64,000 nt of DNA from Carnobacterium sp. CP1 (GTDB lineage: Bacteria; Bacillota; Bacilli; Lactobacillales; Carnobacteriaceae): positions 1,178,001 to 1,242,000 of the forward strand of contig NZ_CP010796.1 of NCBI RefSeq assembly GCF_001483965.1, read 5' to 3'. Of the stretch, positions 36,827 to 50,724 are shown in pieces. The position numbers and the translations under genes are program-made. The stretch's first letter is position 1. Each line of letters starts with the position of its first letter. The notes beneath the pieces are model-generated. The model did not search any database and was not told the DNA's origin. It saw only the letters and a program-made list of their open reading frames with translations.

Positions 36827-36936
36827 TTTCATCAAACCGTTTTAGTTTCTTGAAAAAGCAGGGGTAAAGCTGCACATCTGCATTCGTTTATTTCTTGAAT
36901 TTTATTTTTTTTCATGCTAATCTTAGTGCAATAAAG

Positions 36937-37000
36937 TAAATAGGCGATGGTGTTCGCCCTTAACTATCATAGTAAGTTTATGATTAATGACGCCTACTTA
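36937..37000 (+). ncRNA. Fluoride riboswitch (crcB motif)
   Basis: TAGGCGATGGTGTTCGCC (from about 36941) followed by CTTAACT and, ~35 bases on, ATGACGCCTAC is the conserved pattern of the fluoride aptamer. GGCGATGGTGTTCGCC forms the hairpin and TAGGCG pairs with CGCCTA. It stands right before a CLC-F gene, the classic target. The 3' aptamer strand is shared with the terminator, so fluoride binding should prevent termination. Confidence 0.95.
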
Positions 37001-37048
37001 AGAAAACGTACGTCCGTATGTTTTTTTAAGTAGGCGTCATTTTTTTTC
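36987..37048 (+). terminator. Riboswitch-controlled terminator before the CLC-F gene
   Basis: ATGACGCCTACTTAA (36987-37001) pairs perfectly with TTAAGTAGGCGTCAT (37026-37040), followed by T8. The left arm includes the aptamer's CGCCTA, so aptamer and terminator are mutually exclusive. Confidence 0.95.
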
Positions 37049-37083: not shown

Positions 37084-38331
37084 ATGGTAACGAAAGAATT
37101 TTTTTCAAAAAACAGCTTTATAGCAATCGCTGTTTATCTTTTTAAATGGATCAGTATAGCTGGGGTGTTGAGTCTTTTGATCGGCTCTGTTTCAGCTTTC
37201 TTTTTAATAAGCTTGGATTGGGTCACTCAACTACAAACTACTTATACTTGGCTGCTGTACTTATTGCCTTTTGGAGGGGCTTTAATTTCTTTTTTGTATA
37301 AAAAAGTCGGAAAAAATGCTATTCGCGGAAATAATTTGGTTATCGAACAAGCCAATGGAAATGAAGAGAACATTCCTCTTCGGTTGGTTCCTCTAACCTT
37401 GTTTGGAACACTGACCACTCATTTGCTTGGCGGGTCTGCTGGCCGCGAAGGTACCGCTGTTCAAATGGGTGGAGCGTTGGCAGAAGCTATTGGAAAACTG
37501 ATCCGCTTAACTAAATCTGACCGTAAAATCATTGTGATTTGCGGCATCAGCGGTGGATTTAGTGCCGTTTTTGGAACGCCTATAGCGGGCACTGTATTCG
37601 GTTTGGAAGTATTGGCTTTAGGTTTGATTAGACATGAAGCTTTACTGCCCAGCTTTTTTTCGGCTTACTTCGCAAACCTTGTTACTAAAAGTTATGGCGT
37701 GACGCATGCAGTGTATGAAATGGAAGCAGCTCCTGATGCTAGCGCTACTTTATTGGTAAAATTGATTGCGGCAGGAATCGCATTTGGACTTATTGGGTTA
37801 ATTTTTAGCCGCTCAATTGTTTTGATAAAAAAATATTATGCTAAATGGATGCCAAACCCTACTGTTCGAACATTCATTGGCGGATGTGTTATTCTAATTT
37901 TCGTCTGGGTCATCGGCCGCGCTTATCTGGGGTTGAACTTGCCTTTGCTTGCTCAAGCCTTTACCGGTGATTCAGGCCCTTATGATTTTTTAGGAAAATT
38001 GATTTTCACTGTTTTTACACTTGGTACAGGTTACCAAGGTGGAGAAGTTACGCCGTTATTTGTGATTGGTGCTACTTTGGGAAGTTCATTAGCTGTTTTG
38101 CTTCATTTACCGATCAGCTTTTTAGCTGGACTAGGTTTTATAGGTGTTTTTTCAGGAGCTACCAATACGCCGATTGCTTGTTTTATAATGGGGATTGAAT
38201 TATTCGGGTCTGAAAATGCTGTCTATCTATTTTTGATTTGTGTCATCAGCTATCTTTGCTCGGGAAACTCAAGTATTTATGCTTCTCAAAAAGTTGGTAT
38301 AGAAAAAGGCAGCTTATTCTTGGAAGATTAA
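37084..38331 (+). CDS. CLC-F fluoride/proton antiporter
   Basis: A 415-residue CLC-family membrane protein. The sequence RGNNLVIEQ (about 81-89) takes the place of the chloride-selective GSGIP, as in the fluoride-specific CLC-F branch, and GREGT (120-124) carries the gating Glu. About ten helices are seen. It exports fluoride against protons. Placement directly after a fluoride riboswitch makes the assignment firm. AAAAGGAGG ribosome site. Confidence 0.95.
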   Translation: MVTKEFFSKNSFIAIAVYLFKWISIAGVLSLLIGSVSAFFLISLDWVTQLQTTYTWLLYLLPFGGALISFLYKKVGKNAIRGNNLVIEQANGNEENIPLRLVPLTLFGTLTTHLLGGSAGREGTAVQMGGALAEAIGKLIRLTKSDRKIIVICGISGGFSAVFGTPIAGTVFGLEVLALGLIRHEALLPSFFSAYFANLVTKSYGVTHAVYEMEAAPDASATLLVKLIAAGIAFGLIGLIFSRSIVLIKKYYAKWMPNPTVRTFIGGCVILIFVWVIGRAYLGLNLPLLAQAFTGDSGPYDFLGKLIFTVFTLGTGYQGGEVTPLFVIGATLGSSLAVLLHLPISFLAGLGFIGVFSGATNTPIACFIMGIELFGSENAVYLFLICVISYLCSGNSSIYASQKVGIEKGSLFLED

Positions 38332-48881: not shown

Positions 48882-50279
48882 TCAAACAAATAAGACAAAT
48901 AAAAGTCCCGTCACCATTACGGTCACAAAGTTAATCACATCGTTGGTAATAAACCCTAAGCCGGAAACCTGTTCGAGCAGTTGACCATTTTGAGTTTTGC
49001 GTTCTGTTATCCCACTTGCACTTTTATATTTGGCTTGCAAAGTACTGCCAAATACACTGTCTATCACTGTTCCAATAAAACCGAATAACCACACCATCAA
49101 AAAAATTTGGACAGAATACTGACCTAAAGCTAATAAAGCGATTATACCTGAACCTACGATACCACTAAGCAGACCCAACACACTTATTCCGCCAGACAAC
49201 CCTGTTTGTAAAGGCTTCAGCGTTAAAATCGAAATCGGCGGCTTGCTGCTCAGCATGCCTACCTCTGAAGAAAAGGTATCGGCACTAGCTGCAGCAAAAC
49301 TAACCAACGCTGCCAATTTAAACGCATCATTTTGAGTTAAGCAGGCAATAAGTACAAAAAGAACAGCTGGAAGAGCATTCGCAATCACTTGTACAGAACC
49401 ACGTGTGCCTTTTCGTTCGTGTAACTGAGTCGCTGCAACTTTTTGCTCTATGCCAAGTTTGCTCAAACCACTTCCGAGACCCGCAAAAAGGATCATTGCT
49501 GAATAAACCGTCCACCCGCCGAACACATACAACACTGTTCCGACTAGATAAGCTGTTAGACAAGATCTGGCCGTTAGTGCATCGACTAACCAAGCTACAA
49601 ATAGAATGAATACAGTCAAAACACTGTTAACAATCATACCGGTCAGCAGCGGAAAACTAAATAAATACAATAAAACAGCTATTCCAATTGGAAAACTTAA
49701 ATTGTCGTAACCCCTAGTCGTAAATAACTCTAAAAGCATACCGCAAAAGCCAGCCGCCACTCCAACCAGAATGAAAGGAACCGGTAAATAGATATAAGCA
49801 AGAAAACCAGTAATGACGGCTACTACACTAAAAACTGTTACTGAACCTTCTAGTGTTTTGTCGCCAAATTTAGCGGGTAATTTAATTTTGCCCCATTTTG
49901 TTCCTACGACTGCTGCTAAACCATCACCATAAGCCATACTCAAGATTCCGCCTAAAGCTAAATAAAGCTTATCCAAATACAAAGCGCTGCTAATAAGCAG
50001 CAACAAAGATACTGCGTACCAGACCGTTCCAAATGTTTTATTTTCTGACCGTTCCATGGCCTTGATCAAACCTTTTTCAACAGACAGGTAATTCATTATG
50101 ATCGCTAGCATAGGAACGATTGCTGCTGCTATAGGCGACGTAAAATAATACAATGCAATAAAAACCCAATTCCCTAATAGGATATGGATAAGTTTGCGTG
50201 AACTTTCTTCTTTCAAGTGCCATTTTTTTGCATCAGCGAAACGCCGCTTAAGATGACTCTCACATACACCAATGACCAA
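48882..50279 (-). CDS. Fused polyprenol kinase (SEC59/VTE5-like) and DUF92 (VTE6-like) protein, N-terminus apparently frameshifted
   Basis: The main frame (465 residues from a TTG at 50279) joins two membrane domains. The first (about 1-215) is dolichol/phytol kinase-like: SSRKLIHILLGNW, YGDGLAAVVGTKWGKIKL and GDKTLEGS. The second (about 225-465) is DUF92, with HERKGTRGSVQVIANALP, SADTFSSEVGML and GLSGGISVLGLL. In plants and cyanobacteria, VTE5 and VTE6 phosphorylate phytol in two steps to phytyl diphosphate; a fusion suggests salvage of a polyprenol to its diphosphate. Upstream, another frame from TTG 50305, with GGGAG eight bases before it, reads METNALGVIWSLVYV, a good missing first helix. 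So the gene probably starts there with a +/-1 shift near 50265-50275. Confidence 0.85.
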   Translation of the reverse strand: MVIGVCESHLKRRFADAKKWHLKEESSRKLIHILLGNWVFIALYYFTSPIAAAIVPMLAIIMNYLSVEKGLIKAMERSENKTFGTVWYAVSLLLLISSALYLDKLYLALGGILSMAYGDGLAAVVGTKWGKIKLPAKFGDKTLEGSVTVFSVVAVITGFLAYIYLPVPFILVGVAAGFCGMLLELFTTRGYDNLSFPIGIAVLLYLFSFPLLTGMIVNSVLTVFILFVAWLVDALTARSCLTAYLVGTVLYVFGGWTVYSAMILFAGLGSGLSKLGIEQKVAATQLHERKGTRGSVQVIANALPAVLFVLIACLTQNDAFKLAALVSFAAASADTFSSEVGMLSSKPPISILTLKPLQTGLSGGISVLGLLSGIVGSGIIALLALGQYSVQIFLMVWLFGFIGTVIDSVFGSTLQAKYKSASGITERKTQNGQLLEQVSGLGFITNDVINFVTVMVTGLLFVLFV

Positions 50280-50481: not shown

Positions 50482-50689
50482 GCAAAAAAAAAGGCACTGA
50501 CAAAAGCCAGTACCTTTTCCGACAATATTTATTTTCATAAATAGGTCCCATGAATTCCACAAAACAGAGGGGTCCAAACACCTGCATCTCGCAGTTGTAC
50601 CTAAGTACGGTGTGCCTTGTCTAATTCTAACCACTAGTCGCCGCAGCGAAATGACCGAAGTCACCTGGTCAGAGTCAACTCATCGCATG
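50482..50689 (-). ncRNA. Unassigned structured RNA, ~205 nt
   Basis: A minus-strand unit bounded by a promoter and a strong terminator. Predicted helices in order: AGGTGAC-TTCG-GTCATTT (a UUCG-capped hairpin), TCGC-TGCG-GCGA, GTAC-TTAG-GTAC, CTGC-GAGAT-GCAG (the last two enclosed by ACAC/GTGT), TATTTAT/ATAAATA, and the terminator AAGGTACTGGC/GTCAGTGCCTT with T9. An internal AAGGCAC could pair with GTGCCTT of the terminator, so regulated read-through into the kinase-fusion gene is possible. I find no SRP, tmRNA, RNase P or T-box signature; a 68-codon frame across it is dubious. Could be an independent small RNA or a cis leader. Confidence 0.7.
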
Positions 50690-50695
50690 TATAGT

Positions 50696-50724
50696 ACTAT
50701 ACCACAGGATATCTTTATTTACAA
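50696..50724 (-). promoter_or_regulatory. Promoter of the structured RNA
   Basis: On the minus strand TTGTAA (50724-50719), 17-base spacer, TATAGT (50701-50696). Expected start near 50689. Confidence 0.75.

Follow-up and report, generated by a model that had tools for sequence, protein, structure and literature searches.

The RNA gene and its neighbors

The window, a 64,000-nucleotide stretch of Carnobacterium sp. CP1 DNA, carries on its minus strand (50484-50688) a gene for an RNA of approximately 205 nt that belongs to the Ref68/Lacto-3 family (RF02840; Rfam match 50687-50552). The 5' end of this RNA was placed from the promoter and the edge of conservation and the 3' end from the terminator. 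A sigma-70-type promoter (TTGTAA-N17-TATAGT, its -10 element preceded by TG) lies on the same strand at 50696-50724, some 8 nt ahead of the first nucleotide of the RNA, and an intrinsic terminator (AAGGUACUGGC-UUUU-GUCAGUGCCUU followed by U, the T9 run of the DNA) lies at 50484-50516, also on the minus strand, where its helices (10 and 11) covary. The -10 region is conserved in relatives, and the RNA begins with A in 74 of 87 cases. The original prediction of a structured minus-strand RNA with a promoter and terminator of its own was thus confirmed at the positions claimed, and the UUCG-capped hairpin, three-way-junction modules and T9 terminator that it described are legible directly in the sequence. 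A single copy of Ref68 was found in this genome.

The search against Rfam identified the RNA as RF02840 ("Enterococcus sRNA 68 (Lacto-3 RNA)") with a score of 67.5 bits (the cut-off being 44 bits) and a match to model positions 1-124 of 124. This match, an outcome that the original prediction had itself counted against its view that the RNA fits none of the common families, disposes of that view and excludes a new RNA class. 6S RNA (RF00013), which the prediction had named among the models to be searched, has its gene at a separate locus of the same genome and gave no match here at E values up to 10, while ncr1015, MicC, STnc40 and other sub-threshold Rfam matches at the locus were far under cut-off. 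The family had therefore been catalogued already, under an entry name that mentions neither target nor function, and what is new is its 23S rRNA target, described below.

An additional possibility, namely that the RNA is a cis-acting leader or attenuator of the polyprenol-kinase fusion gene, was refuted by comparison of relatives. This gene (48882-50279, minus strand) encodes a DUF92 domain (PF01940, residues 221-457) fused to a membrane part at the N terminus, for which Pfam gave no match. It lies approximately 200 nt downstream of the RNA on the same strand and, in the window, the internal AAGGCAC of the RNA is able to pair with the terminator arm GTGCCTT as had been noted. However, this antiterminator pairing is absent in those relatives whose terminators read AAGTACTGAC..GTCAGTACTT, and the linkage is no better conserved, since in three genomes of the same genus (L005, L007 and L008) the gene after the RNA is that of a dipeptidase (M19, assigned from the Pfam match of the window's own copy) rather than the DUF92 gene. 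For the latter, a separate promoter-like site was also noted (50373-50346). Thus, regulation of the DUF92 gene in cis retains virtually no probability, and the RNA is a free-standing gene. Among five genomes of the genus, only in the window's species was the DUF92 gene seen to separate the dipeptidase gene from the RNA. Failure of the cis interpretation leads one to expect an RNA that acts in trans, which fits the finding that the genes on both sides of the RNA differ between families across the order.

Elsewhere in the window, a fluoride riboswitch (RF01734, 49.6 bits) was noted on the plus strand at 36934-37003, approximately 80 nt upstream of a gene (37084-38331) for a 415-aa membrane protein that by eye resembles a CLC-type channel or antiporter.

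Secondary structure

The fold of the full-length RNA was more stable than that of shuffled sequences (z = -4.0) but z rose to -0.75 when the terminator was removed, which indicates that most of the folding signal is that of the terminator and that energy by itself proves little. The structure was therefore named from the window sequence and counted on an alignment of 17 sequences from the family, in which the 59 proposed pairs were 96.8% paired. Two-sided changes were found in 25 of these 59 pairs, compared with a mean of 10.5 for shuffles and 0-5 for slid partners, so that the covarying pairs expected from the original prediction are present within the family (n = 17 sequences). When 52 sequences were aligned with MAFFT, the resulting covariance model contained zero base pairs; P1 is evidently too variable for automatic order-wide alignment, hence the use of the 17-sequence alignment.

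All structural elements lie on the minus strand. The P1 three-way junction (50626-50673; helices 1-3, seven pairs with two-sided changes) is composed of a stem (50673-50666/50633-50626), the UUCG hairpin (50665-50650) and a second hairpin (50649-50638); in streptococci and several other groups it is reduced to a single hairpin, with retention of the 5' tail and the P4 loop. The P2 closing helix, GACAA (50621-50617) with UUGUC (50525-50521), encloses P3, P4 and P5 (50521-50621). This helix (helix 4) was 100% paired with two-sided changes in three of its five pairs, and the variants GAUAA/UUAUC, GACAG/CUGUC and GGUAG/CUACC occur in relatives. Within P2 are the P3 module (50577-50616; helices 5-7), which has the root GGCAC/GUGUU and two inner hairpins, the P4 hairpin GGACCC/GGGACC with a 20-nt loop (50544-50575; helix 8, two-sided changes in 3/5 pairs) and the P5 hairpin UAUUUAU-GAAA-AUAAAUA (50526-50543; helix 9). 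In contrast with the window RNA, the RF02840 model ends at the P4 apical hairpin and is without P2, P5 and the terminator. When the window RNA was folded to minimum energy, the tail was paired with the P4 loop (AUGAGUU/AAUUCAU). This modeled pairing might represent a closed resting form, which may need to be opened.

Complementarity of the 5' tail to helix 90

The 5' tail of the RNA, AUGCGAUGAGUUGA (50675-50688, minus strand), is the complement of TCGGCTCATCGCAT of 23S rRNA, which corresponds to E. coli positions ~2506-2519 (counted by hand from A2503) in the 5' strand of helix 90 (H90). We take this target to be the 5' side of H90 beginning at U2506, a peptidyl-transferase nucleotide. The tail, the 13-mer variants of which were compiled from 87 RNAs, is a near-invariant sequence of 14 nt (consensus AUGCGAYGAGUYGA) that directly follows the -10 region at the RNA start. 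Apart from the RNA gene itself, complements of the tail with at most two mismatches were confined to a single sequence, TCGGCTCATCGCA, in nine places of the genome. The surroundings of two of these places are 23S rRNA and eight of the nine recurred with a longer 23S pattern; at no more than one mismatch, the 23S gene (nine places) is the sole multi-copy complement of the tail. The tail-23S duplex consists of 14 pairs out of 14, including G-U, with a calculated energy of -21.1 kcal/mol, whereas the best of 200 shuffled tails run against the 23S region reached -17.4.

This complementarity was maintained across the 100 genomes from which both sequences were available, 83 of which had 14/14 pairs and 16 of which had 13/14. 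The positions at which the tail varies are mostly opposite a G of 23S rRNA, or opposite A/G2513, and the variants that keep the pair include U or C facing G2509 and G2508, A to G facing U and, in G198, C to U facing G2516. C in the tail position that faces 2513 was confined to genomes with G2513 (25 of 25) and was seen in none of 54 with A2513, and the combination arose twice, once in enterococci and their relatives and separately in genus g14. G2513 of the latter genus was predicted in writing before its 23S sequences were read, and all seven genomes with 23S rRNA read GGCTCGTCGCA, different from every other genome of family f9 examined.

One recurrent tail change breaks a 23S pair. The tail UGCGAUGAGGCGA (GAGG), in which G faces G2509 to give one G.G mismatch, is carried by G020, G281, G076 and G103, by G062, G131 and G145, and by G069 (family f4; genera g9, g16 and g33). 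An additional candidate contact, between a P3 loop GGAU and AUCCU of 23S rRNA beside the tail site, was rejected as not conserved because the window loop is GAGAU.

Co-variation of the P4 loop with helix 89

A second site of complementarity to 23S rRNA was found in the P4 loop, where UGUGGA (50556-50561, minus strand) is the complement of UCCACA in the apical loop of helix 89 (H89; E. coli ~2473-2478). Two loop types, UGUGGA and UGUGAA(C), occur among the RNAs, and the H89 apical loop (~2472-2478) is either GUCCACA or GUUCACA. The loop type matched the 23S sequence in 55 of 55 genomes, UGUGAA being associated with UUCACA and GUGGA with UCCACA. For 30 further genomes, the loop was predicted in writing from 23S rRNA before the RNAs were read, and all 30 predictions were correct, including those for two genomes with deviating tails (G279 and G198) that were scored by eye. 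Another 16 genomes, g14 included, all fit as well (16/16); these were found with a pattern that allowed either loop type and their loop predictions were unwritten beforehand. In total, the loop residue opposite position 2474 was complementary in 101 of 101 genomes, which are related genomes from a collection in which many drafts are missing 23S rRNA. An automatic recount scored one genome as a mismatch and skipped G198. The mismatch was attributed to G069, in which a chance P3 match competes with the P4 loop, and on inspection both G069 and G198 obeyed the rule for 2474.

As an unbiased control, the 23S columns that vary among 54 genomes (698 in all) were compared, and a single column separated the loop types, namely the predicted partner at 2474. 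With the two contact sites left out of the 23S tree, six changes were counted in each partner and all six were in step. Independent pairs were in agreement throughout, whether counted on well-supported branches (four pairs) or on all branches (six pairs), with p = 0.125 in a sign test of the four well-supported pairs. Since the pairs are too few for a sign test to fall below 0.05, weight is placed on the column control and the prospective tests. A single base change would re-match the loop to an altered H89 loop.

The P4 contact can be as short as 6 bp. In the window's family, the invariant P4 loop CUGUUUUGUGGAAUUC could pair further along H89 with small bulges, for a calculated energy of -12.8 kcal/mol. 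The loop UGUGAGCC of L026 (G191) is predicted to pair with GUUCACA by means of one G-U.

Taken at the level of sequence, these results make it almost certain that the RNA pairs with 23S rRNA. Base-pairing sRNAs typically have a conserved 5' end that is single-stranded, as this RNA does and as would be expected if tail and loop acted on mRNAs and 23S rRNA were a coincidental or sponge target. Such an explanation is highly improbable in view of a loop-23S co-variation that is exact to the residue in the 101 genomes and unique to one of 698 columns, and of a tail for which 23S rRNA is the only multi-copy complement.

Distribution of the RNA

Most families of the order Lactobacillales carry Ref68, the gene of which is intergenic and single-copy. 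One RF02840 match per genome was obtained from 18 of 18 genomes of the window's family and from 147 of 295 genomes of the order with strict filters. The RF02840 model, with the filters used, misses genus g14 and many streptococci. A two-motif pattern (tail plus loop), to which the RNAs of the window's family do not conform, was found in 150 of 395 genomes of the order, and its reversed control in none of the genomes listed. This pattern recovered most streptococci and the lineage f9/g14, the latter without a listed RF02840 match. Genus g14 (L199 and L209-L214), detected by the motif pattern alone, is a divergent branch with tail C and the loop UGUGAAAC.

RF02840 was not found outside Lactobacillales and the motif pattern gave five matches there, two of which lie in open frames as long as 498 and 592 codons and resemble coding sequence; nothing convincing was seen beyond the order. 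Within the order, the tail-plus-loop match was noted in no genome of families f7 and f8, even though the 23S target was the same in those that were checked, which indicates that the function is dispensable or done otherwise in these families, where the RNA was lost, never gained or replaced. No RNA of the RF02840 family could be recognized by name in the Grad-seq papers on enterococci and pneumococci that were examined, and searches that mostly covered journals open without subscription returned nothing relevant on a target or function of Ref68/Lacto-3 or on pairing between bacterial sRNA and 23S rRNA.

Proposed role in ribosome assembly

The best-conserved parts of the RNA are two co-varying antisense elements, one in the tail for H90 and one in the P4 loop for H89, as expected for the functional class of chaperone-type rRNA-pairing RNAs. 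Judged from sequence comparisons, Ref68 is probably (at a probability of roughly 0.6) a single-copy housekeeping RNA that acts in trans as a folding chaperone for the peptidyl-transferase center (PTC) during assembly of the 50S subunit. Constitutively made, it would base-pair in trans with the PTC region of precursor 23S rRNA, the 5' tail occupying the 5' strand of H90 (~2506-2519, including U2506) and the P4 loop meeting the apical loop of H89 (~2472-2478) in a loop-loop contact. The two contacts would flank the 3' strand of H89 and A2503-G2505 and would keep H89 separate from the H90 strand, or the two in register, so that misfolding or early closure of the PTC is probably avoided. The RNA would be let go once H90-H92, and then H89, dock. 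The sequence comparisons support the complementarity, its conservation and the coordinated changes; pairing on the precursor rather than on mature subunits, a chaperoning effect and the mode of release are what we infer.

The location of the two sites bears on the stage at which pairing could occur. H90 is buried in the finished large subunit, and simultaneous contacts at both sites would thus need an open PTC. In the mature subunit, the H89 loop lies close to the surface and would be within reach of an RNA that acts on mature or translating ribosomes in stalling, hibernation or antibiotic tolerance, but pairing of the 14-nt tail with the buried H90 strand would require unfolding, and we regard an action of this kind as very improbable. 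In 50S intermediates of Bacillus subtilis, the A-site helices that are late and disordered are H89 and H90-92, and the latter can be present before H89 is (PMC12560758). The need for an open PTC, together with the late folding of these helices, suggests an assembly chaperone.

All of the pairing evidence would apply equally to an RNA that acts as a brake, either by blocking PTC folding or by marking free 23S rRNA for decay at times when the production of ribosomes has to stop, and a 14-bp duplex of -21.1 kcal/mol that persisted over H90 would indeed prevent the native PTC fold. However, the near-universal single copy, the conserved promoter with its A start and the lack of any sign of a regulated context fit better with a housekeeping function, and a purely inhibitory RNA would be expected to have been lost more often. 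A brake is accordingly considered unlikely. Less likely still is that Ref68 guides a modification enzyme to the PTC, where A2503 and U2504 are among the nucleotides between the contacts. Two-part pairing around a short target resembles that of guide RNAs, and the bracketed segment holds known modification sites. Against such guidance, the known bacterial enzymes for this segment, for example RlmN at A2503, work with no guide RNA in species without Ref68, and the distance in the RNA from the start of the tail to the loop varies widely (75-131 nt).

With folding of the PTC as the preferred function, Ref68 would act late in the making of the ribosome, at a step that drugs target (H89/H90 folding), and the finding would apply to Streptococcus and, going by the name of the RNA family, to Enterococcus. 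We know of no bacterial small RNA with the job of helping to build the PTC. The broader view of Ref68 as an order-wide, snoRNA-like RNA for PTC assembly, and so as the first RNA in bacteria to chaperone or guide rRNA in trans, is one that we favor with some reserve.

Comparison with known systems

Among bacterial RNAs, 6S RNA is likewise a single-copy, order-wide, structured RNA of about 200 nt, encoded in the same genome by a separate gene. The late-folding PTC helices to which Ref68 would bind are also those on which RbgA, YphC and YsxC act (PMC12560758). In contrast with Ref68, which is an RNA and was limited to Lactobacillales in the searches run, these factors are protein GTPases.

Eukaryotic non-modifying snoRNA chaperones (snR190, U3, U14 and snR10) are, as proposed for Ref68, RNAs that act in trans with separate antisense elements to precursor rRNA. 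Inspection of the 17-sequence alignment by eye for box C/D elements (RUGAUGA/CUGA, k-turn) revealed no closing C/D pair, and AUGA in the tail belongs to the 23S complement rather than to a C/D box. For snR190, pairing is predicted with domains I and V of 25S rRNA and a role as folding chaperone has been proposed, with no known modification (PMC8536713). Ref68 differs from snR190 in that it is bacterial, has its own promoter and terminator and contacts H89 and H90, both in domain V. By analogy, and with no suggestion of common descent, snR190 appears to be the nearest functional parallel. If the proposed role is correct, bacteria too have a trans-acting RNA for precursor rRNA, in the manner of the eukaryotic snoRNA chaperones.
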